Shown: one piece after another, positions 18,014 to 44,856 of the stretch
How positions within the stretch are numbered: position 1 is the stretch's first letter
Layout: every line of letters begins with the position of its first letter
NCBI GenBank assembly: GCA_015523565.1
Contig: WAKA01000177.1
Coordinates: 1 to 48,773 of the forward strand
Source of the DNA: Candidatus Heimdallarchaeota archaeon
GTDB lineage: Archaea; Asgardarchaeota; Heimdallarchaeia; Heimdallarchaeales; Kariarchaeaceae
DNA length: 48,773 nt
Direction: 5' to 3'
Notes under the pieces: model-generated
The model's database searches: none
Told to the model about the DNA's origin: nothing
Seen by the model: the letters and a program-made list of their open reading frames with translations, nothing else
Translations under genes and position numbers: made by a program

Positions 18014-19846
18014 ATGCCAATGGTTCTACTGAGTATCAATAGGGAACGAATCCCAGAATTTGAGGAATTGATTGATGAAGCTTATGAAATGATCCAGAAT
18101 ATAGATGATCTTTCCCGTGCAATTGATTTCAGCGAACCAAACACCCCTAAACTTATGGTTCTCAAAAACAGGCTAAAAGATCTTCAAGAATTGATCTCTA
18201 ACATTGGTCATTATCAAGATGTCGACGCGGCAAAAAAGCATGAAAAAATCATGGATATCCAAAATGACCTATTGTTGCTCACCAACCGGATTTTTGGTTT
18301 CAATGAAGAGATTGACATGACATTGTCAATAATTACCAATTTCTTGCTCAACCATCTTTGCTCCACTGCCGCGGCAACACCTCACTCACAAGTCATTGGC
18401 ATCGCAAATGTCCTTGCGCAAGTTTTGTCAAGGGAGCACATAAATTCTGAGATCTCATATGAAATCCCAAAAGATATTACACAATCAATGTATTTTTCCC
18501 GCTTTTCCTTAATTTTCAATTATTTAATAACTAATGCTGGACTTTACGCAGCTCCAATTATCGGATTGCCGCATATCTCCATTTCCGCTTTGGGTGGATG
18601 GGCTGAAACTGCTTTGGAGCACTTCTCCCAATTGTTCCATTTCATTGAAAGTTATTTTTCCATAGAAAAATTCATTGGATTTGACAAGATGTTTGATTCA
18701 ATTGTGCAATTTGACACTACCAAGGATGTCCTTTCTTCTTTTCTTTATATGAATGAATTTTATGCATCCTTGGCATCTCTTGCAGACCTGCTAAGCGGCT
18801 TGAAATTTCCTGCAAACCTTGCAGGTCAAGAGAATGATGTGGTGTTTAGTTCTAAAGAACATATTACACGGACTCTCTGTTCGTCAATTAAAAGAAATTA
18901 TTCAATTATCCTGAAATATATCGACCAAATCAAGAAAATGTTCAATGAGGGGGCAATCAATAAAAATGAAAATCCATTTACTGACGAGGATCTAATCCGA
19001 ATTGAAAATGAAGCATACTTGTGGAGTTTAATTGGGGAAATGGGGGAACACCTCATTGAAATTTTAAACTTGCAGGCAAAATTCTACAGTGAAGAGAATA
19101 TCCTGCAAAACAATTTCTATGAGTTCATTAGGGACAACACAAATGATATTTACAATGAATTAAACATTCTTTTCAATAAGATTGACCAAGAGTTTTCATC
19201 TCTTATGGAAGGGTCATTGGAAGATCCAAGTATTGCCTCATCTTCAAGGTTTGTACAATACAGGCATTTCTTCCAATACATGCTTTATGTTGCTTCTGCC
19301 CTTTGGGTATATTTCAAAGACAGCCTGCCCATCAATATGGTCAATGAAAAATATTATTTCTTGTTTCAGATACCCAACATTGAGAAAAATCCAATTGGAA
19401 ATATAATTCTCGCTCAACTCAAGGGATTTATGGGCATAGACAGCAACGATTACTCCTTAATTAACCAATCAATCATTATGTTCAACCAAGTATTGCCTGT
19501 CGTTGAATTTCAGTCCCATCATTATATTCATTCTACAATTACTCGCGAGCTATTTCAGAGCATCATCGACAATTTGTCAAATATCGAAATTGCACAACGG
19601 CTGCGAGCCACTGTTGAAACCTTTTTGGACGGAAATTTCATCGGTTCGGACAGCAAACTATTCCAAAAACTGATCGTATATAACGGAATGCTGGAAATTT
19701 ATGAGGAAAGTGGTGTATTCATGGTCAACCCAGGAGAACGGTTGATCCCTTTTGATATATTCACTTGGCTGTTAACCCCTGGTATTCAATACAAAATCCC
19801 ATTCATTCCGTTTAACACCGCTCTCGACAATTTGGATGAAGGATGA
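18014..19846 (+). CDS. Unknown 610-aa helical protein upstream of a longin-like gene
   Basis: I do not recognise this protein. It is predominantly helical, without a signal peptide. Residues 1-80 look like a coiled coil (EFEELIDEAYEMIQNIDDL), and a moderately hydrophobic stretch around 170-200 (ITNAGLYAAPIIGLPHISISALG) is too polar to call a membrane span with confidence. The rest alternates amphipathic helices like an alpha-solenoid. It lies 67 bp upstream of a longin-like protein on the same strand, with a possible promoter (ACTATACATATT, about 19893-19905) between them. The context suggests a partner of the GTPase-linked proteins in this region; that is an inference. Confidence 0.65.
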   Translation: MPMVLLSINRERIPEFEELIDEAYEMIQNIDDLSRAIDFSEPNTPKLMVLKNRLKDLQELISNIGHYQDVDAAKKHEKIMDIQNDLLLLTNRIFGFNEEIDMTLSIITNFLLNHLCSTAAATPHSQVIGIANVLAQVLSREHINSEISYEIPKDITQSMYFSRFSLIFNYLITNAGLYAAPIIGLPHISISALGGWAETALEHFSQLFHFIESYFSIEKFIGFDKMFDSIVQFDTTKDVLSSFLYMNEFYASLASLADLLSGLKFPANLAGQENDVVFSSKEHITRTLCSSIKRNYSIILKYIDQIKKMFNEGAINKNENPFTDEDLIRIENEAYLWSLIGEMGEHLIEILNLQAKFYSEENILQNNFYEFIRDNTNDIYNELNILFNKIDQEFSSLMEGSLEDPSIASSSRFVQYRHFFQYMLYVASALWVYFKDSLPINMVNEKYYFLFQIPNIEKNPIGNIILAQLKGFMGIDSNDYSLINQSIIMFNQVLPVVEFQSHHYIHSTITRELFQSIIDNLSNIEIAQRLRATVETFLDGNFIGSDSKLFQKLIVYNGMLEIYEESGVFMVNPGERLIPFDIFTWLLTPGIQYKIPFIPFNTALDNLDEG

Positions 19847-19913
19847 TGTTTTTTTCACAATGCTAATACCTAAGGTTAAAAAGGAGTTTTGCAACTATAC
19901 ATATTAGGGACTT

Positions 19914-20675
19914 ATGTCAAATTTTGAAAAAAAATCAGAAAGCTTGATTTCAGGGTTAATTGTTGTGGTAGTTAAGGAAATGGGTCCTGAAGTCGTATGT
20001 AACATTTCTCCAATTAATGACGACTTGGCTTTCATCACTTCCGCCCATCTGTTTTCATTGGCTGGTCTAATGGAAAATCAAGAAAAAGATGAACGAGAAG
20101 TTATTGGACCTATCCCCGTTAAAAACACTCCGGGTATCAGGGCACTTTTCTTCTTGACTAATGTAAATCATCCAAATTCAGACGACCAAAGGCTGGCTGA
20201 CCATGGTGCACAATTGGGGATAATTCTTTTGTTCAAGGAGGATCGGCTTCCAGAAATCAGAAGGGCAATAGGTCTAATAGAACCTTATCTCAAGTCTTAC
20301 TTTAATAGGTATGATAATTTTAGTGTTGAGGATATAGATTTGCTATTTGGAAACAAGTTATTTGACCATATTGTTGAATTGGTCTCAAAACCACGGACAA
20401 GGGCATTTTGGTATCAACCCCCCAATAAACTCATTGAATACAAAGACCCCTTTTACATAGACAAATCCAAAGACATAATCATTGTTGATGAATATGAAAA
20501 ACAGGCTTATATCTTGACCTCTCCAACCACCTCACCTTTTGAAGCCCGAAAATTAAACAATACCGTGAATGAGATGAACTTCGAACTTTACCGGGGTGCC
20601 TTGGGCATCCAAAAAATGGATGACTTTATGGAAATAGAGCCTATCTTGATAAAATATGGAATTAAGACTTATTAG
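19914..20675 (+). CDS. Longin-like domain protein
   Basis: The 253-aa product has an N-terminal alpha/beta domain (about 10-135) with the pattern of longin-type small-GTPase regulators: a hydrophobic strand running into KEMGPEVV, a GPIPV motif followed by a strand ALFFLT, then LGIILLF and an amphipathic helix. The same order, GPE, GPLPV, AVFFSLY and ILILFY, occurs in the C-terminal third of the receiver protein at 42908-44188, so the two share a domain. The C-terminal half (about 140-253) is alpha/beta and unfamiliar. The last 4 bp overlap the convergent coiled-coil gene. Longin assignment is by pattern only. Confidence 0.6.
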   Translation: MSNFEKKSESLISGLIVVVVKEMGPEVVCNISPINDDLAFITSAHLFSLAGLMENQEKDEREVIGPIPVKNTPGIRALFFLTNVNHPNSDDQRLADHGAQLGIILLFKEDRLPEIRRAIGLIEPYLKSYFNRYDNFSVEDIDLLFGNKLFDHIVELVSKPRTRAFWYQPPNKLIEYKDPFYIDKSKDIIIVDEYEKQAYILTSPTTSPFEARKLNNTVNEMNFELYRGALGIQKMDDFMEIEPILIKYGIKTY

Positions 20676-21628
20676 GGATTTCCTGCAAGAATTTTCCCTG
20701 CCCATTCGTCAATTGTCGATAATATGTCTCCTTTCCCCACTTTTTGAGATTTTATGGCTTCTGAAAGTTTGCGTATGGCAAAGAAGACTGTTGTTGCAGG
20801 AACTTCTCTTTGTTGCAACTCATCCCGGAATTCTGCTAAATATGCTGGTATCTTTTCTATCCTCTCTGCTTTAACTAAATTCTTCAATGTTTCAAACATT
20901 TCTGGAAGTGACAGGTCTGACCAAATTACCTCATTTGAGCTTATGATTATCTTTGAATCAATCATGACCTCTTGATCTTCTTCTTTGAGATATCCCTTTC
21001 TTACCAATTGTGAAAGATGAAATTCAAATTGCGGTACATTGGATTTTTCCCTTAACTTGTCTTTTGGTCCCTTTCCCCCGTATTTTATCAAGGTAGCTAA
21101 TATTTTGGTCTCTGGATCCCCATAAATGGTCAAGGATTCCACAAATTCAATAAATGCATTTGTATATCTCTCATCATCACTTTCAATTTCTCGCATCAAC
21201 AGTTTTTGTGTAGCTGAGGCAAGGCTTTCTGGAAGTCTCTGGCTGATGCTACTTGTTGGATTGCTTCGTTGAAGTTCACTAATCCTGTTCATTAGATCCT
21301 CATTTTCTTTCTTTAATCTATCGAGCTTTTGTTGTAAATTCCTGACAATTTCTGGATCTATTGCTTCACTATCCCTTACTTGAACTTTAGCTCCTGTTTC
21401 CAAAATCTGTATTTCTCTTTCCTTTTCCTCCAAAACATTGGCAAAATACAGATTTTCTTCCTCTAGTTCTTTTTTTGCCTTTATGAGCTTATTAAGGGCA
21501 TCTTCATATTCCTTGATAAGTTCGTTTAACTCAAAGATCCTTGCCTGCAATCCTTGATTGTGCTTCATGGCTTGTTCATATTTCGCTTTCCATGCATATT
21601 TCGTATCTGAATTTTCATTGCCAAACAT
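20672..21628 (-). CDS. Coiled-coil protein with possible winged-helix region
   Basis: The 318-aa product has a long N-terminal coiled coil (about 10-130) with a heptad-rich core of Glu, Lys and Leu. After a linker, a helical region around 165-235 contains KYGGKGPKDKLREKSNVPQF-like and LSQLVRKGYLKEED-like segments, the layout of a winged helix-turn-helix (helix-turn-recognition helix, then a wing). A helical C-terminus follows. No membrane segment. It could be a DNA-binding or adaptor protein. The 280-bp gap upstream (21629-21908) holds its promoter region and nothing else I can support. Confidence 0.6.
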   Translation of the reverse strand: MFGNENSDTKYAWKAKYEQAMKHNQGLQARIFELNELIKEYEDALNKLIKAKKELEEENLYFANVLEEKEREIQILETGAKVQVRDSEAIDPEIVRNLQQKLDRLKKENEDLMNRISELQRSNPTSSISQRLPESLASATQKLLMREIESDDERYTNAFIEFVESLTIYGDPETKILATLIKYGGKGPKDKLREKSNVPQFEFHLSQLVRKGYLKEEDQEVMIDSKIIISSNEVIWSDLSLPEMFETLKNLVKAERIEKIPAYLAEFRDELQQREVPATTVFFAIRKLSEAIKSQKVGKGDILSTIDEWAGKILAGNP

Positions 21629-21891
21629 TGATCAATTAATATTGGGATTACATTGTTTAAGGGTTTCTACTGATAAAAGTTTCAATCAATGGTATTCTGA
21701 AGGAAAATATGACTTGTTTGCTGTGAAATTTTTGGAAAATCCAATTATAAATTCTTTTTCTGCAAATGCAATTGGCATATGGTTAACTGTTAAGTTGTAA
21801 ATTCGGTTACATTATTTTCAATTTTCAGTCGAATCTTCAAAATCTGCATAATGGATTTATAGATATAATGGGGATGCATTTAATTAACAAT

Positions 21892-21898
21892 AAAAAAA
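21892..21898 (-). terminator. T-run terminator of the 21909-22661 gene
   Basis: On the minus strand a run of seven T begins about 10 nt after the stop codon at 21909. Archaeal termination commonly uses U-rich tracts without a required hairpin, and none is seen. Confidence 0.4.
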
Positions 21899-21908
21899 GG
21901 GTTTTTCC

Positions 21909-22661
21909 TTAGGTATTTTTCAAGAGTGTTTCTAGTTTTTGGCAGAATTCTCCAAATATTTCTGTTGTTTTTTCTTTTTGTGTTGGGTTTATGACTGCCT
22001 GACCTAAAATAAAAAATTCTGTATTATTCAGTCGGTTAATCAGTAAAATTTCTTTTGCAAGTTCATTGTTCAATTGGAAAATTGATGATTCTCCAACCCA
22101 TGTCCTATCAATCGGCAATTGCGATAGAATTTCCATCAAAAGCATGACCTTATCTTCATTCCCTAAATAAACGTGAATTATCCCGTCATCTAGATCAGTG
22201 AGTAACAAAGTTTCAAATTCTATTCCATCATATGTCAACAATTTGTCTATATAGCTGAAAGTTTTTGGCAACAGCTCTTCTGGAAATTGATATGTGTCCA
22301 AAATCCTTTTAATATGTTTCTCCACTTCTTCAGATGGTGACCAATCGAACAAGGTTTCTATTGTAATTTCTTTACCCAAAAAATCCATTACGTTTGACAG
22401 TTTCTTTGAAATTAACTCTTGATTGTCAAAAATGTCACTGAATGCAATGTATTGAACACCATTCTTGCTTGAGACTGTTATTCTTAATGAGCCAATGTCC
22501 GCTCCCCTGAAATCAAGATCAGAAGAAAGAGTTCCTGTAAAAAGAAGTAATGCCCCAACAAGACCAGAAAGCAACGATGGATCCACCTTTATGGTCTTAT
22601 CATCGTACAAATCAAAACCTAATCCCGAATCTTTATCCATAACCAAAATTTTATGGATCAT
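21909..22661 (-). CDS. Longin/roadblock-like protein divergent from a Ras-like GTPase gene
   Basis: From the ATG at 22661 the protein has 250 aa. It opens with IHKILVMDKDSGLGFDLYDD, a strand-turn-strand opening typical of longin/roadblock-type small-GTPase regulators (hydrophobic strand, D-x-x-S-G-L, then an aromatic strand). LLSGLVGALLLFTGTL looks like the first helix. A repeat of the opening pattern around 145-165 (ETLLLTDLDDGIIHVYL) suggests a second similar unit. The frame is open to 22763, but the extra 34 residues are low-complexity and AT-derived, so I prefer the later start. It is divergent from the GTPase at 22838. Confidence 0.6.
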   Translation of the reverse strand: MIHKILVMDKDSGLGFDLYDDKTIKVDPSLLSGLVGALLLFTGTLSSDLDFRGADIGSLRITVSSKNGVQYIAFSDIFDNQELISKKLSNVMDFLGKEITIETLFDWSPSEEVEKHIKRILDTYQFPEELLPKTFSYIDKLLTYDGIEFETLLLTDLDDGIIHVYLGNEDKVMLLMEILSQLPIDRTWVGESSIFQLNNELAKEILLINRLNNTEFFILGQAVINPTQKEKTTEIFGEFCQKLETLLKNT

Positions 22662-22810
22662 CTTGAATTGTTTTGTTTTTTTCCTTAATAAACTAGCCGA
22701 AAGAATAATCCCCACGACAAATTTAATATAAAAATTAAATTGAAAATAAAATGAAAAATTCATCTCTCTCGGTAATTTTGACCTCTCTGGAAATCACTTA
22801 AACAAGCTTT

Positions 22811-22823
22811 TTTAATTATAAAT
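22811..22823 (+). promoter_or_regulatory. Probable TATA element of the GTPase gene at 22838
   Basis: TTTAATTATAAAT lies 15-27 bp before the TTG at 22838. No Shine-Dalgarno site or in-frame ATG is present, so a leaderless TTG start is the simplest reading. Spacing is slightly short. Confidence 0.35.
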
Positions 22824-22837
22824 CCATTAAAAATTCG

Positions 22838-23821
22838 TTGAATAACACTATTCATGGCTCCGAATGGGAAGACTATCTTGATAGTCTGTATGATTGGGTT
22901 AATTCAAGATTGACAGCCTACCAAGAAGGAGAAATTTCTAAAGAGGAATATTACAAGGATTATGATTATTTTAAAATGGAACTGAAAAGGGTTTATTCGA
23001 TTATAGAGGATGAAAGAAAAAGAAGAGAAAAAAATCCTACGGAAAAAATTGAACCACAGGTGATTAAACCAGATCTGATATTCCAGTATTTTTATGGAGA
23101 GGAAAAGAAAGAAATTATTGAAGAGGACAGCAAGGAAACTATTTCTGAAATCCCTGAAGAATCCATTCAGGCACAGGAAAAAATTGTGGAAAGCCAATCT
23201 CAAAAACCACTCTTTGAGGCTATTAAAAAAGTACAATCCAAGAAAAAGCATACCCCAACAAATCAGAATTATACCCAAATCCAAATTGTTTTGCTAGGCG
23301 AAAGTGCTGTTGGTAGAACATCTTTAAGGAGAGCTTTCTTGGGAAAACATTTCATCAATGAACACTTAAGTACTGTTGGCGCTGCTATGGAGGATAAAAT
23401 CATAACTGTAGAAAACGAACATTTCAAGATTACTCTGGTGGATCTGGGAGGACAAGATTTTTATGCGCCTGTCCGTGCCAATTTCTACAAAAAAGCCAAT
23501 GGGGCTCTTCTTGTGTTTGATTTAAGCAGAAAAAACACGTTCATTAAATTGGATTCTTGGTTGAGAGAATTCTTTATGCATACAAAACGCGGTCTCCCAT
23601 TCATCATTGTTGGAAACAAATCAGATCTAAAAAGGGCAGTGAAGAGAGAAGAGGGGATACAACTTGCCGAAAGCTTGAGTAGGCAGACAATGCATGCAGG
23701 ATTTGAAGTGAAATATTTTGAGACATCCGCAAAAGAGAGAATAAATGTTGATGAGGTATTTCTTGAACTAATCAGACAAATCAAGCATTTTAATCATGGG
23801 AAAAAACAAATGTCAAATTAG
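22838..23821 (+). CDS. Ras-superfamily small GTPase with N-terminal extension and Arg in place of the P-loop Lys
   Basis: The 327-aa product has a 145-residue N-terminal extension (acidic, coiled-coil-like, then a Lys-rich linker) ahead of a Ras-type G domain. Motifs: G1 GESAVGRTS (154-162), a candidate G2 threonine in STVGA, G3 DLGGQD (202-207), G4 NKSD (260-263), G5 TSAK (296-299). The G1 lysine, which contacts the beta- and gamma-phosphates, is arginine (R160, codon AGA). The glutamine of G3 is kept. The C-terminus has no CaaX or Cys prenylation site. The start is a TTG; the first in-frame ATG falls inside the extension. It is divergent from a longin-like gene and 70 bp upstream of an MCP. 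Confidence 0.85.
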   Translation: MNNTIHGSEWEDYLDSLYDWVNSRLTAYQEGEISKEEYYKDYDYFKMELKRVYSIIEDERKRREKNPTEKIEPQVIKPDLIFQYFYGEEKKEIIEEDSKETISEIPEESIQAQEKIVESQSQKPLFEAIKKVQSKKKHTPTNQNYTQIQIVLLGESAVGRTSLRRAFLGKHFINEHLSTVGAAMEDKIITVENEHFKITLVDLGGQDFYAPVRANFYKKANGALLVFDLSRKNTFIKLDSWLREFFMHTKRGLPFIIVGNKSDLKRAVKREEGIQLAESLSRQTMHAGFEVKYFETSAKERINVDEVFLELIRQIKHFNHGKKQMSN

Positions 23822-23891
23822 AATAAAAATAAGAAAGAAATTCAAAATTTTTGGAGACAACAAATAAATTATATGATTTCTTTGAGAACAT

Positions 23892-24989
23892 ATGTCTGCT
23901 CCTGAGTTTACTTTCATCAATGCAATGTTGTTTGCCTCCAAATTTTTTACCGTCTTGCTCCCCACCTATCTAATTATTCGATTTTTAATGCCACGTATCC
24001 CCAAACTTGGAAAAATTCCTGTATTGAAAACAATGATGCTTCCATCTGACTTGTCAAAAAGGATTTTCTTTGTTTTCTCATTTTCCATGTTTGCAGTCAT
24101 TGTTGTTTTGTTTGCTGTGATTTTGCCTAGTTCCAATACAATTGACGATTGGACACTTGCAGTCACTCTCACTGTGACAATCATAGTAGTAACATTGTTC
24201 CTTTCAGGCGGTTTCGAACGTTCTGTCTCTCAGCCACTTAGGTCTGTTGCATTGCAATCAGCCGAATTTGCAGACAAAAATCTAGCTGCAAAAGTGAAAT
24301 TGTCTGATAGTGGTTTTGGAGAAGCTAGAAAACTGGTTAATGCCAATCGCCAATTAGCTAATGTGTTTCGTACACTAATCACTAACATGAAAGACACCAC
24401 CAATAGACTTGCAGAATCTGCTGAAGAATTGGCCGCTGGTTCCGAGGAAGTTGCCGCGACTACTGAGGAAGTGACCAGCACCATTCAGAACATCGCGGAA
24501 GGTGCCGCCGAACAAGTACGCCAAATCAATCAGATTTCTGAAATCATTAAAGAAATAGAAAACATTATTGAAATCTCTATTTCTGAAATTGCATCCACAT
24601 CAAGCATAACAAAGGATCTTGCAGAGCAGACAAATCTCATTTCCCTCAATGCCGCCATAGAAGCTGCAAGGGCAGGAGCAAGCGGACAAGGATTTGGTGT
24701 GGTGGCTGACCAAGTCAGAAAACTGTCAATTGAATCAAAAAATGCATCTGCATCCATTGAAAATACAATCACTGAAATTGGTGAAAATATAAAGGAATCT
24801 GTGGCTCGCATTGCACACGCAGTTAATACCATTCAAGGAGTGGCAGAAAACACTGCGGCATCATCTGAGGAAGCCGCGGCAGCAGCGGAAGAACAGGCGG
24901 CATCACTTCAAGAGATAACAGAGCATGCTCAAAAATTGTCGGAGCTGGCAGATAAGTCACAGGCTATAATCAATGAATGGAAAATTTGA
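23892..24989 (+). CDS. Methyl-accepting chemotaxis protein without an extracellular sensor domain
   Basis: A 365-aa receptor. Membrane helices are seen at about 10-32, 57-77 and 85-105, with only short loops between them. A HAMP-like segment follows (about 106-160), then the MCP signalling coiled coil with the hairpin tip LAEQTNLISLNAAIEAARAG near 238-257 and VVADQVRKLS after it. With no sizeable outer domain, the stimulus must come from the membrane, from the short loops, or from a partner protein. It follows the Ras-like GTPase by 70 bp on the same strand and precedes enolase. Confidence 0.93.
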   Translation: MSAPEFTFINAMLFASKFFTVLLPTYLIIRFLMPRIPKLGKIPVLKTMMLPSDLSKRIFFVFSFSMFAVIVVLFAVILPSSNTIDDWTLAVTLTVTIIVVTLFLSGGFERSVSQPLRSVALQSAEFADKNLAAKVKLSDSGFGEARKLVNANRQLANVFRTLITNMKDTTNRLAESAEELAAGSEEVAATTEEVTSTIQNIAEGAAEQVRQINQISEIIKEIENIIEISISEIASTSSITKDLAEQTNLISLNAAIEAARAGASGQGFGVVADQVRKLSIESKNASASIENTITEIGENIKESVARIAHAVNTIQGVAENTAASSEEAAAAAEEQAASLQEITEHAQKLSELADKSQAIINEWKI

Positions 24990-25016
24990 TTGAATTTGCG
25001 GGATTTGATTGTAACA

Positions 25017-25023
25017 TTTTTTT
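25017..25023 (+). terminator. T-run terminator after the second MCP
   Basis: Seven T residues lie 28 bp after the MCP stop. The element abuts TACTATAAGG, the likely TATA region of enolase, so terminator and promoter are packed together. Confidence 0.35.
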
Positions 25024-25045
25024 ACTATAAGGTTACTTTTTATCC

Positions 25046-26305
25046 ATGAGTGCAATAATAAAGAAAGTTTTTGCGCGAGAAGTGCTGGATTCAAGAGGCA
25101 ATCCCACAGTTGAGTGCGAAGTCCACACTGACTCCACTTTTGGGAAATTCATAGTTCCATCTGGTGCATCAACTGGTCAGTTTGAAGCTGTTGAACTTCG
25201 TGATGGAGACCCGAAACGCTTCCATGGAAAAGGCGTATTGAAAGCCGTTTCAAATGTAAATGAAATAATCAGTCAGAAAATTGTGGGAATGGACGTTACT
25301 GACCAAGAAGGAATTGACAAGGTTCTGATTGAACTTGACGGTACACCTAACAAGGGAAAACTTGGTGCAAATGCCATTTTGAGCGTTTCAGCCGCTTCTG
25401 CAAGAGCCGCCGCAAAAGTGAAGGGTCAACATCTCTTTGAATATCTTGGTAACAGTAAACGACTGCCCACTCCTCTTTTGAATGTCATTAATGGAGGAAA
25501 GCATGCAGGTGGAAAATTGGCAATCCAGGAGTTCATGATTGTTCCAAAAGGCTTTGAAACATTCAGGGAGGCATTGCGTGCCTCTTCTGAAGTATATCAT
25601 TCGCTGAAAAAATACTTGAAGACCAAATATGGCTCTTCCTCAATTAATGTGGGCGATGAAGGAGGCTTTGCACCCCAAATAGATTTTGCAAAGGATGCTT
25701 TGTCTGCTTTAACAGAAGCCATAAACAATGCAGGATACGAGGTTGGGGAGCACTTTTTCTTTGCAATAGATTCTGCCGCATCTGAATTCTATGAAAATGG
25801 AAAATATTTCGTAGATGAAAAATATATGGATGCAGATGAACTGTTGAACTACTATCTTGAACTTATTGATGATTTCCCTGCATTGATTTCCATTGAGGAT
25901 CCTTTCGATGAAAATGATTTCGAAGCTTTCTCTAAAATGGTCAAAAAAGTAGGAAGTACAAAAGCCATTGTTGGTGATGACCTGACAGTTACCAATGTTG
26001 AACGAATTCAAAAGGCTATCGATATGCAGTCCATGAATTATTTACTATTGAAAATCAATCAAATAGGGACATTGACTGAAGCCAAAAATGCTTTTAACCT
26101 TACAAAATCCCAAAATTGGGGAGTTGTCATCTCTCATAGGTCGGGTGAAACGGAAGACCCATTCATTGCAGATTTGTCAGTTGGATGGGGTGCAGAAAGA
26201 ATTAAAACAGGGGCTCCTGCAAGGACTGAAAGAGTTGCTAAATACAATCAATTGCTGAGAATTGAAGAATTGCTCGGAGAGGAGGCAAAATATTATAATC
26301 AATAA
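25046..26305 (+). CDS. eno: Enolase
   Basis: A 419-aa enzyme converting 2-phosphoglycerate to phosphoenolpyruvate. Signatures: the N-terminal AREVLDSRGNPTVE segment (residues 10-23), SGASTGQFEA (39-48), NVGDEGGFAP with its substrate-binding Glu, the magnesium-binding IEDPFDEND and GDDLTVTN motifs, and ISHRSGETEDPF near the C-terminus. Length is normal. It sits alone between the MCP and the receiver-longin gene. A 15-bp tandem duplication covers its stop codon. Confidence 0.97.
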   Translation: MSAIIKKVFAREVLDSRGNPTVECEVHTDSTFGKFIVPSGASTGQFEAVELRDGDPKRFHGKGVLKAVSNVNEIISQKIVGMDVTDQEGIDKVLIELDGTPNKGKLGANAILSVSAASARAAAKVKGQHLFEYLGNSKRLPTPLLNVINGGKHAGGKLAIQEFMIVPKGFETFREALRASSEVYHSLKKYLKTKYGSSSINVGDEGGFAPQIDFAKDALSALTEAINNAGYEVGEHFFFAIDSAASEFYENGKYFVDEKYMDADELLNYYLELIDDFPALISIEDPFDENDFEAFSKMVKKVGSTKAIVGDDLTVTNVERIQKAIDMQSMNYLLLKINQIGTLTEAKNAFNLTKSQNWGVVISHRSGETEDPFIADLSVGWGAERIKTGAPARTERVAKYNQLLRIEELLGEEAKYYNQ

Positions 26306-26326
26306 ATTTTAAATCAATAAATTTTA
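26297..26326 (+). repeat. Perfect 15-bp tandem duplication across the enolase stop
   Basis: AATCAATAAATTTTA occurs twice in direct succession (26297-26311 and 26312-26326). The first copy contains the enolase TAA. Confidence 0.9.
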
Positions 26327-26363
26327 TCTGCATCAAGCATAATTAAAAAAACTATTCCTTTTG

Positions 26364-26372
26364 TTTATATAT
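26364..26372 (+). promoter_or_regulatory. TATA box of the receiver-longin gene
   Basis: TTTATATAT is centred about 43 bp before the ATG at 26411, which predicts a short leader of around 17 nt. Confidence 0.4.
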
Positions 26373-26410
26373 CTGGAAATTCAGAACAAAATTCAGTTAA
26401 GTGTGGTCGA

Positions 26411-27841
26411 ATGGATGTTCGATGGGTTGAAAACAGGAAAGTCATAGTCATCGATGATTCCCTTTACCAACGGGAATTACTTTTCAGTCAACTGACAAAG
26501 GATGGTTATGATGTTGTTGGTTTGGCTGAAAATGCAAAAGATGGGCTTCGAATGGTGGGAACCCAACGACCTAACATTGTCATACTTGATATTTCTCTAC
26601 CTGACATGCCTACAGACGAAATTATTCGGGGTCTCAGATCACTTTTGCCAAATGTCTTTATTATTGTCTCTGCTCCTTTGGGAATGGAGGAAAATATCCA
26701 TTATCTCATAAGGGTGGGTGCCAACGAGTTCTTACCGAAACCTATCGAAAAATCCCACTTGGATTATATTTTGGTGAAATATGAAATTACAAATTTCCCT
26801 GAAAATACAAATCTTGCATTTGTCATCAATTTTCTTCACCAGCTTTATTATACGCAACTTATTCAGTTTGCAGATGATGAATACGAAAAAATAATCAAGA
26901 GGGTTCTCATCAGGAATTTCAAAAACATGGTTCGAAAATATCCTGAACGATTTATTTTCTATGAAAATCCCTTGAAACTGGACGTGGTTCTTTCATATAA
27001 TAAGAAAATTCCTGTACAGCTTGAAAAGGTTATAATCAGGCAAATTGAAAATCTGTTCCAAAGAAATTTGAATGACTTGGAAAAGAAGATACCGTTGGAG
27101 ATACTTCAATCACTCCTTCAAGAAAGCTTTATGTCATATTATTCTCTTGCAAAACCATTCATTGATGCTTTTGATTATTCGCTTCCTGAATGGAAAAATT
27201 TCAAATTCAAGATTGTCAGACCATCCCCTCCGATGCAAACAGAAAGGCAAAAGTTGCAATATATCTCAAATACTGAATTTTCATGGCCTGACATCCCAAT
27301 CAGTCCAGAAATTGAAAGAATAAACGCATACCGCTTTGAAAATGAAAGAGGTCTTGCATCATTAAAGGAATTGAAATGGAAAAATGATGTCAATGCTTTT
27401 GTTGGTCTCGCAATGTTCGATGAAATTTTAGGTCCTGTAATGGCTCAAGTTACCCCCTCGGTTGTCCCCGAATTCATGGAAGATACAATGAAAATCATTC
27501 CCAGCCTTATGGATCGGCAAGGACTCAAGGATATGGAACCATTTTTGCACTCCGAAAGTGATTTTGGATCTCTAAATATCGTATTTTCTGTAAGATCTGA
27601 AAAGATGAGGGGAATGTCTCTCGATCTCATGCTTTCCATAATTGTCTCTCCAATTTCTGCAAATCATCTACTCAAACTAAGCCAAATGAGTGGAATTCTA
27701 AAAGCAACCGCCGCCCAAATCCTCTATCATCTTTCTGAAAGTGATGTTGCCGATCCTGTAAGTGCAATCAAATTGAAATCAGATATTCCAGACCTTCTCA
27801 ATGTATTTCTCCACGAAGTGAGAACATTTTTGGAATATTAG
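26411..27841 (+). CDS. Response-regulator receiver fused to a helical and a longin-like domain
   Basis: The 476-aa product starts with a CheY-like receiver (about 8-125). The acidic pair D15/D16, phospho-acceptor D60 in VILDISLPDM, S87 and K110 in LPKPIE are all present, so it should be phosphorylated by a histidine kinase. A helical middle domain (about 135-260) follows. A C-terminal alpha/beta domain (about 324-450) opens GLAMFDEILGPVMAQVTP and continues with a strand SLNIVFSV and an LSIIVSP strand, the pattern seen in the longin-like protein at 19914. The same three-part order recurs at 42908-44188. There is no DNA-binding output domain. No kinase gene is adjacent. Confidence 0.8.
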   Translation: MDVRWVENRKVIVIDDSLYQRELLFSQLTKDGYDVVGLAENAKDGLRMVGTQRPNIVILDISLPDMPTDEIIRGLRSLLPNVFIIVSAPLGMEENIHYLIRVGANEFLPKPIEKSHLDYILVKYEITNFPENTNLAFVINFLHQLYYTQLIQFADDEYEKIIKRVLIRNFKNMVRKYPERFIFYENPLKLDVVLSYNKKIPVQLEKVIIRQIENLFQRNLNDLEKKIPLEILQSLLQESFMSYYSLAKPFIDAFDYSLPEWKNFKFKIVRPSPPMQTERQKLQYISNTEFSWPDIPISPEIERINAYRFENERGLASLKELKWKNDVNAFVGLAMFDEILGPVMAQVTPSVVPEFMEDTMKIIPSLMDRQGLKDMEPFLHSESDFGSLNIVFSVRSEKMRGMSLDLMLSIIVSPISANHLLKLSQMSGILKATAAQILYHLSESDVADPVSAIKLKSDIPDLLNVFLHEVRTFLEY

Positions 27842-42907: not shown

Positions 42908-44188
42908 GTGGCATCTCAAGTCAAATGTATTGTAATAGATGATTCTCTATTCGTAAGAAAAACACTCGTCTCACTTATTTCAAGTTTGGGTCATCAAGTT
43001 GTCGGCGAATTTGGGAATGCGGAGGATGCATTGGTTGCCATTCCTGACACAGATCATGATATAATCTTCCTTGATATCATTCTTCCAAATATTTCTGGTT
43101 TGGAAGCCCTAAAAATGATATTGTCCCAAAACAAAGATGAAAAGGTAATAGTCCTGTCTGGTTTGGGTGATGAAGATGTAATTAACGCCGCTCTGCAATT
43201 GGGGGCTATAGACTATATCCAAAAGCCAATTGATGAAATACAACTCAGACGCGTTTTTGAAAGGATAATTGAATCATATTTTATTCCTGACGCAGTTACC
43301 CTTTCAAAAATAGAGGCAACTGCAAAACTTGTCTCAATTTTCTTTGATGAACTTCTATCAATTGCAACATATCAGGTTCGAAGAGTCATCAAATCCCAAA
43401 TTGATTCACTTTTTTTAAACCCACCAGAAATCATCCCTAAAATGTTTAAGTTGGATCCAGAAAATTTCGGCATAACAACCAATGAGGAAATCTTTGGAAT
43501 TTATGAAGAAGAAGAGGTGATTTATGCATTAAACGGCTTTATTGAGATCCTAAAAAATGAACTTTCATACATTTATTCAGAGGATTTCATCAATCGTCTT
43601 TTTCAGTCTGCTATGCTGGCAATTGCCTCAAAACCCAGAACCGCAAAACTTGTTGCATTCGTAAATCCCGAAGAAATTGGAATTCCCCTTCCTGATAAGG
43701 TAAATTATGATCAATTTAAATTTTATTTACAAAAATCCCAATTGCAAATTGAGGATAATCTCCTGTTGGCAACAGTGTTTTTTGGATCAATAGGTCCAGA
43801 AATGAAAAACAGGATTGGAAATGAAGAAATGGTGCCTGAGAATACCATAGTTAAATCTTCAATTTTCTATTTCACCTTGGTTGGATTTGGAAACGAGAAA
43901 AAAGGTCTTTTCGGCCCCTTACCTGTTTCAGATCTAAATGATGTATCTGCTGTATTTTTTTCCCTTTATCCATTGGAAGATGAAAACAATCCCAATCCTA
44001 TTAGTACAATACTTATCCTATTCTACAGGTATACCGCGGATAAGATTGTTGAGGATATTAATAAGCTGAACTTTATCTTTAGAACACGGCTTGGCAATGT
44101 AAAATATTTGGGTGATATTTCCAAACCGATTTTGAGGGGAATAATGGAGGATTTGGTTGAATATTATAGAGAAATAGAAAATGCTTGA
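42908..44188 (+). CDS. Second receiver-longin-like fusion, upstream of a small GTPase gene
   Basis: A 426-aa protein with the same design as 26411-27841. The receiver (about 5-120) has D11/D12, phospho-acceptor D56 in IIFLDIILPN, S84 and K106 in IQKPID. A helical middle domain (about 130-270) follows. The longin-like C-terminal domain (about 282-410) has VFFGSIGPEM, GPLPV, AVFFSLY and ILILFYRY strands in the order of the longin-like protein at 19914. Start is GTG 42908. The gene lies 95 bp upstream of a Rab-like GTPase on the same strand. Because the GTPase has its own TATA-like element, co-transcription is likely but not certain. Confidence 0.8.
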   Translation: MASQVKCIVIDDSLFVRKTLVSLISSLGHQVVGEFGNAEDALVAIPDTDHDIIFLDIILPNISGLEALKMILSQNKDEKVIVLSGLGDEDVINAALQLGAIDYIQKPIDEIQLRRVFERIIESYFIPDAVTLSKIEATAKLVSIFFDELLSIATYQVRRVIKSQIDSLFLNPPEIIPKMFKLDPENFGITTNEEIFGIYEEEEVIYALNGFIEILKNELSYIYSEDFINRLFQSAMLAIASKPRTAKLVAFVNPEEIGIPLPDKVNYDQFKFYLQKSQLQIEDNLLLATVFFGSIGPEMKNRIGNEEMVPENTIVKSSIFYFTLVGFGNEKKGLFGPLPVSDLNDVSAVFFSLYPLEDENNPNPISTILILFYRYTADKIVEDINKLNFIFRTRLGNVKYLGDISKPILRGIMEDLVEYYREIENA

Positions 44189-44283
44189 CCATTAATTTAG
44201 TGGCTGATAAAAATAGTCATTTGTTGGTTTCTAAATTCTATAGTTTTTTATATTATATTAAAAAACCCCTTTAAGGTGGACAA

Positions 44284-44856
44284 ATGCAATCTGTCGGATT
44301 GACCACAGATATCAAATTATACAAGATTGTCATTGCTGGAGAGACAAATGTTGGAAAAACCAGCTTAAGAATGAGATATTTCGGCGAAAAATTTACCAAA
44401 AGCTATATCCCAACTCTTGGAGTTGATTTTTCTGTAAAAAGACTAAAATTGGATCAATCTACCTTCGCAGAAATCCAAGTATGGGATATGGCTGGACAAA
44501 TGACTTTTCAGGCTTTAAGAAAACGATTCTTTCTCGGTGCATCTTCAATCTTCCTAGTGTTTGATATCAAAGACAAAGAATCCTTTGTAAAGCTAAGGGA
44601 ATGGTTTGACGACTTTTGGGTATCATTCAACAATCGAAAGGACATCCCTGTTGTATTGGTTGGTAACAAAATTGATTTGGGGGATCCTGTAGTATCAAAA
44701 GAGGAAATGGATCAGTTTTGGGAAAACATCAAAAAAGATTACCCTGATTTTACAGGAAAATATGAAACTGTTTTGACTTCTGCGTTAAACGGTGAAAATG
44801 TTCAAGAGCTTTTTGATTCTACTATCCATCATATTTTTGAACTTTATCGGAATTGA
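44284..44856 (+). CDS. Rab-like small GTPase
   Basis: A 190-aa Ras-superfamily G protein. Motifs: G1 GETNVGKTS (19-27), G2 threonine T44 in IPTLGVDF, G3 WDMAGQ (67-72; Q72 in place of Ras Q61), G4 NKID (128-131), G5 TSAL (165-168). The switch I region IPTLGVDF resembles Rab/Rag-type GTPases. No C-terminal Cys or CaaX, so no eukaryote-like prenyl anchor. A TATATTATATTA stretch (44250-44261) and an AAGGTGG Shine-Dalgarno site (44274-44280) precede the ATG. It follows the receiver-longin gene and overlaps the convergent zinc-ribbon gene by 13 bp. Confidence 0.95.
   Translation: MQSVGLTTDIKLYKIVIAGETNVGKTSLRMRYFGEKFTKSYIPTLGVDFSVKRLKLDQSTFAEIQVWDMAGQMTFQALRKRFFLGASSIFLVFDIKDKESFVKLREWFDDFWVSFNNRKDIPVVLVGNKIDLGDPVVSKEEMDQFWENIKKDYPDFTGKYETVLTSALNGENVQELFDSTIHHIFELYRN

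Follow-up and report, generated by a model that had tools for sequence, protein, structure and literature searches.

A CheY-like receiver protein with an Asgard signalling module, encoded beside a Rab-like GTPase in a Heimdallarchaeota archaeon

The window analysed here, a stretch of 48,773 nucleotides from Candidatus Heimdallarchaeota archaeon (contig WAKA01000177.1, assembly GCA_015523565.1), encodes a 426-aa protein that is best explained as a CheY-like response regulator, switched by phosphorylation and carrying a C-terminal module that would act as a protein-binding platform and is shared Asgard-wide; the probability of this reading is put at about 0.42. What is new is the Asgard signalling module, together with its fusions to receivers. 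Independently of any link to a GTPase, the module represents a signalling domain, found Asgard-wide and so far without a name, that occurs in many architectures and that can be solved and assigned. A first-pass annotation had described the protein as a receiver-longin fusion next to a Rab-like GTPase and had read the pair as a switch from two-component signalling to a GTPase; its observation is confirmed except for the label 'longin', and its interpretation is partly supported. The coordinates of the features are collected in Table 1.

Table 1. Location of the features discussed, numbered from the first letter of the window
Feature	Coordinates	Strand	Remarks
Receiver - helical middle domain - C-terminal module protein	42908..44188	+	426 aa, GTG start
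CheY-type receiver domain, residues 8-115	42929..43252	+	Pfam, PDB profile, fold match
Phospho-acceptor Asp56 codon	43073..43075	+	conserved in 8/8 covering proteins
Middle domain, residues 126-262, mostly helical	43283..43693	+	model pLDDT 52-91 per ten-residue block
C-terminal Asgard module, residues 282-422	43751..44173	+	GPE ... GLFGPLPV signature; alignments A2, A4; census
Intergenic gap, 95 bp	44189..44283	+	T-run and TATA-like TTTATATT at 44247-44254
Rab-like small GTPase	44284..44856	+	190 aa, ATG start, G1-G5 complete, no lipidation cysteine
Stand-alone protein carrying the same C-terminal module	19914..20675	+	
Second Ras-like GTPase, N-terminally extended	22838..23821	+	in block shared with G002
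Methyl-accepting chemoreceptor signalling protein	23892..24989	+	Pfam MCPsignal 2.2e-24; 53% identity in G002
Second receiver protein, own C-terminal domain (FDEILGP motif)	26411..27841	+	476 aa; orthologues in six family genomes

Receiver domain and phosphorylation

The N-terminal part of the 426-aa protein is a receiver, matching Response_reg in Pfam at 1.1e-22, archaeal CheY (6er7) as the top match of a PDB sequence profile, and CheY structures with a TMt of 0.94 when its model is used in a fold search. The first-pass annotation had called the receiver intact, with D56, S84 and K106, and these residues do lie at those positions; neither they nor D11 and D12 vary among the eight proteins that span the region, namely the window protein and seven orthologues, the active site being kept down to about 22% overall identity. 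The receiver fold, the acidic pair, the phospho-accepting Asp, the Ser/Thr and the Lys that mark a response regulator are thus all present, and the receiver is apparently active, judging from its conserved residues. Following the receiver, the middle domain gave no confident match in profile searches of Pfam and of PDB sequences (best E in the latter 0.015).

No kinase gene lies beside the receiver gene. Elsewhere, the window's genome encodes nine receivers in all, two CheA kinases of Hpt-P2-HATPase-CheW architecture, both with P2 receiver-binding domains, as well as CheB, CheW and two HisKA kinases, and on this inventory CheA is most likely the phosphate donor to the receiver. According to the mechanism proposed here, one of the two CheA kinases would phosphorylate Asp56, the phosphorylated receiver would pack differently against the helical middle domain, and the altered packing would expose or dimerise the C-terminal module, which could then serve as a platform for binding other proteins.

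Fold and distribution of the C-terminal module

The module is defined in the alignment by the signature GPE ... GQGxxYxxGLFGPLPV ... DR and has no match in Pfam, NCBIfam or the PDB sequences. The longin-like character ascribed to it at first pass did not find support in these comparisons: neither the window's module nor any of 25 module members matches Pfam Longin, and a Longin search of the family genomes rose above the cut-off in none of nine. Against 13 roadblock proteins from the same archaeal family, hhalign returned a probability of 0.3%, which does not place the module among Roadblock/LC7 domains. Structure prediction was of low confidence, with the module at a pLDDT of 27-63 in a full-length AlphaFold run on four sequences and at a mean of 44 in a domain-only run on the Kariarchaeota homologue, likewise with four sequences, though in both models the module's second half has two strands and, after them, two helices. 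When propensities are averaged crudely over 25 sequences, the order is strand-strand-(ambiguous helix)-strand-strand-strand-helix-helix. The longin domain has a profilin-like fold, in which two strands and a helix are followed by three strands and two helices. The order of strands and helices in the module, as modelled and as averaged, is weak evidence that fits, and does not prove, a longin-type topology, so that a longin-like module is put forward as a plausible hypothesis only.

A search with a profile made from the orthologues located the module in 36 of the 228 genomes of the phylum. Its domain partners, read from open frames and with PAS, GAF and membrane labels assigned by eye, include intact receivers (the set of alignment A1 and L192), degenerate receivers (L075, L088), TPR arrays (L067, L069, L070, L074, L081 and others) and N-termini that look PAS-, GAF- or membrane-like (L068, L076, L085, L082). 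The module is a mobile, Asgard-wide plug-in that is used by other signalling proteins too. A scan of a genome collection with the full 426-aa protein gave no relatives, the same scan with a four-row alignment gave three loci (Heimdallarchaeota BWSM_123, Kariarchaeota FT_008 and Dive100_bin10.34), and a scan of viral contigs for the module gave no match. An expansion is seen in the Asgard family f18, whose genomes each encode up to five TPR proteins of about 700 residues that end in the module (L182-L215).

A different role for the module, that of a sensory ligand-binding input domain by which the protein would integrate a small-molecule signal with phosphorylation, is quite improbable. The PAS- and GAF-like segments beside which it stands and the TPR arrays that it follows are typical partners of input domains, and the GQG and GPLPV motifs, which are strongly conserved, could form the lining of a pocket. 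Receivers, however, usually bear output domains at the C-terminus, stand-alone copies such as the protein at 19914-20675 exist, and the crude order of helices and strands fits a longin-type fold.

The Rab-like GTPase and its linkage to the receiver gene

The neighbour 95 bp downstream is a Rab-like GTPase with complete G1-G5 motifs, just as it had first been annotated. Its product matches the Ras family in Pfam at 8.6e-38, carries the motifs GETNVGKT (G1, residue 19), PTLGVDF (G2, 43), DMAGQ (G3, 68), NKID (G4, 128) and TSA (G5, 165), and has yeast Ypt7 (5e-29) and then a Thorarchaeota Rab (1.6e-28) as its nearest solved relatives. There is no cysteine in the whole protein, which therefore has no Rab-type lipidation site and lacks the C-terminal prenylation feature of eukaryotic Rabs.

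The two genes may be accidental neighbours, the receiver protein being real and having targets other than this GTPase, perhaps no GTPase at all, and the GTPase having a promoter and partners of its own; this is a substantial possibility, if somewhat short of even odds. The TATA-like element and the T-run in the intervening gap are in keeping with it, as they may constitute a separate promoter for the GTPase gene. The window's genome, a 3.57 Mb draft, contains 29 Ras-like genes, and the chance of a Ras-like neighbour, assuming one gene per kb, is about 1.6% per receiver gene, with about 0.15 such neighbours expected for nine receivers. Adjacency by itself is mildly unusual and not decisive. In the cultured Asgard archaeon MK-D1, Tran and colleagues (PMC10933270) reported that GTPase genes generally do not share operons with those for roadblock, longin or TRAPPC3, and adjacency is thus weak evidence either way. 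The window's genome also has a more classical GTPase/roadblock pair, in which a divergent Ras-like GTPase gene and a roadblock gene lie about 190 bp apart (G000:C148:16676-17643).

Comparison with other genomes bears on both sides of the question. In G002, a member of the same genus, the order of transporter and receiver genes is kept, and the GTPase gene lies 4.2 kb upstream, divergent and two genes away. In a phylogenetic tree, the window GTPase groups with that of G002 and with a fragment in G001 (support 95/96 and 100/95), a placement by which both are assigned to its orthogroup. The presence of GTPase and receiver genes within 5 kb of each other in two divergent congeners, despite rearrangement, argues against an accident; the intervening genes and divergent orientation in G002 argue for one. 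The G001 fragment was rejected as proof of pairing, since its contig starts inside the GTPase, and neither a receiver orthologue nor the transporter was found in the G001 genome. Among three other genera of the family, no Ras-like gene lies near the receiver gene in any of four genomes (G005, G006, G008 and G004, the last on a partial contig that ends at the receiver gene), which favours accidental neighbourhood. The GTPases near the receiver gene in G005 and G006 were rejected as partners, that of G006 being of the translational EF-Tu type by Pfam and that of G005 looking like its relative. The orthogroup of the adjacent GTPase was found in this genus only, at least four other genomes of the family encode the receiver protein without it, and strict adjacency is confined to the window. 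Of the gene pair that the first-pass annotation proposed to look for in other Asgard genomes, linkage within 4.2 kb in the congener G002 was recovered, and the pair is absent from G005, G006, G008 and the partial contig of G004.

In family f3 (G011, G013) a GTPase gene lies 2 kb downstream of the receiver gene, with Lrp- and TruD-like genes in between. Its orthogroup, however, is a different one, as it groups 100/100 with a gene on contig C56 of the window's genome that adjoins TruD without any receiver gene. Because this relative keeps its TruD synteny without a receiver, the f3 linkage is independent of the receiver; it was rejected as support for the pairing and sits well with an accident. 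GTPases occur near seven of about 57 module-bearing loci, roughly the background density, which points the same way. The receiver-bearing loci considered separately speak against it, with a GTPase within 5 kb at four of nine; with estimated spans of 80 and 50 kb, P is about 0.004-0.02 if these loci are independent and about 0.06-0.12 if they are counted as two lineages.

The full model proposed at first pass, in which phosphorylation would control the receiver protein as an exchange factor or activator that acts specifically on the adjacent Rab-like GTPase, draws on the adjacency and the genus-level linkage. It also draws on the GTPase's closest solved match, Ypt7, and on Mon1-Ccz1, a complex of longin/roadblock type that serves Rab7 as exchange factor (PMC9481161). 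With the longin fold unproven by AlphaFold and the pair not conserved outside the genus, this model is unlikely. Under the broader reading of the module as a protein-binding platform, it is a serious possibility, not far below an even chance, that the target is a small GTPase of some kind; in this genus no single partner is more likely than the neighbouring Rab-like GTPase, although as an individual candidate it is rather improbable. That phosphorylation of the receiver controls this GTPase is a guess, and one that can be tested.

Comparison with known systems

To the first-pass annotation's statement that it knew of no such system, it must be objected that the principle is known. In Myxococcus xanthus, the Ras-like GTPase MglA has an exchange-factor complex that contains a receiver, RomR/RomX (PMC9481161), and the Frz chemosensory system acts upstream of it (PMC10329633, PMC4316618). 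Other links of receivers or kinases to MglA-type GTPases have been described (PMC4316618, PMC9481161). The RomR/RomX-MglA-MglB system resembles the window's pair in combining a receiver protein with a Ras-like GTPase, RomR with its partner being the exchange factor and a chemosensory system acting upstream, while the roadblock protein MglB is the GAP (PMC9481161, PMC10329633, PMC4316618). It differs in that the output of RomR is a disordered region with a Glu-rich helix rather than a folded module, and in that the RomR/RomX and MglA genes are not adjacent, whereas those in the window are.

Ammonia-oxidising archaea encode NitrOD3, in which a receiver is fused to a domain reported, on the basis of HHpred, to be related to Roadblock/LC7 (PMC5847659). 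This too is an archaeal receiver with a fused output domain, but the output domain is another one, the window's module having, unlike that of NitrOD3, no profile match to the roadblock proteins of its own archaeal family; the NitrOD3 paper (PMC5847659) mentions no GTPase. The conservons (Cvn) of Streptomyces, which encode a histidine kinase, an MglB-like protein and an MglA-like GTPase together (PMC4316618), likewise link two-component signalling with a small GTPase that has a roadblock partner. In contrast to the receiver protein described here, they have no response regulator, and the GTPase itself has been proposed as the output (PMC4316618). Asgard archaea such as MK-D1 have dozens of longin and roadblock domains as well as Rab-like GTPases, some of them fused (PMC10933270); the window's module differs from Asgard longin proteins in having no Pfam Longin match, and the MK-D1 paper (PMC10933270) mentions no receivers or response regulators. 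The literature searched, which covered subscription journals in part, contained no account of an Asgard receiver protein with a longin-like module.

A second receiver protein and its gene block

The window contains a second receiver protein at the end of a block (18014-27841) that is kept in order in the congener G002 (L222). The shared order runs from a 610-aa protein through the stand-alone module protein and two further proteins to the second GTPase, the chemoreceptor, an enolase and the receiver protein, the GTPase and chemoreceptor genes being 70 bp apart. The block is not kept outside the genus, and housekeeping genes are kept within it, so that slow rearrangement accounts for part of its conservation. 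A GTPase and a chemoreceptor beside the second receiver protein form a lead at least as good as the original pair, and the block is possibly a chemosensory-to-GTPase module. The C-terminus of the second receiver protein gave no credible match in profile searches of PDB and Pfam; compared with the C-terminal module it gave a weak profile match (3%, E 0.015), above all controls and not convincing.

Taken together, the two regions (42908-44856 and 19914-27841) would be two instances in this window of a wider arrangement in which Heimdall-lineage archaea wire CheA signalling to Rab-like GTPases through receivers with a longin-type platform, a generalisation that is doubtful at present. If receiver proteins do drive Rab-like GTPases in these archaea, the closest to eukaryotes, this would illustrate one way for a prokaryotic cell to have governed the GTPase switches on which eukaryotic membranes depend.

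Two side observations concern other proteins. Proteins of about 260 residues, with an N-terminus of the type LVMDKDSGLGFDLYDD and a strand-strand-helix look, are encoded at 21909-22763 on the minus strand, at L046:16110-16889 and at L047:13187-13969; they have no Pfam match, and in two genomes different Ras-like GTPase genes have a member no more than a few kb away, which makes these proteins possible GTPase partners. At L052:14523-15017 there is a stand-alone relative of the C-terminus of the second receiver protein (35% over 95 aa), and a CheA/CheY cluster of that genome lies no more than about 5 kb away.
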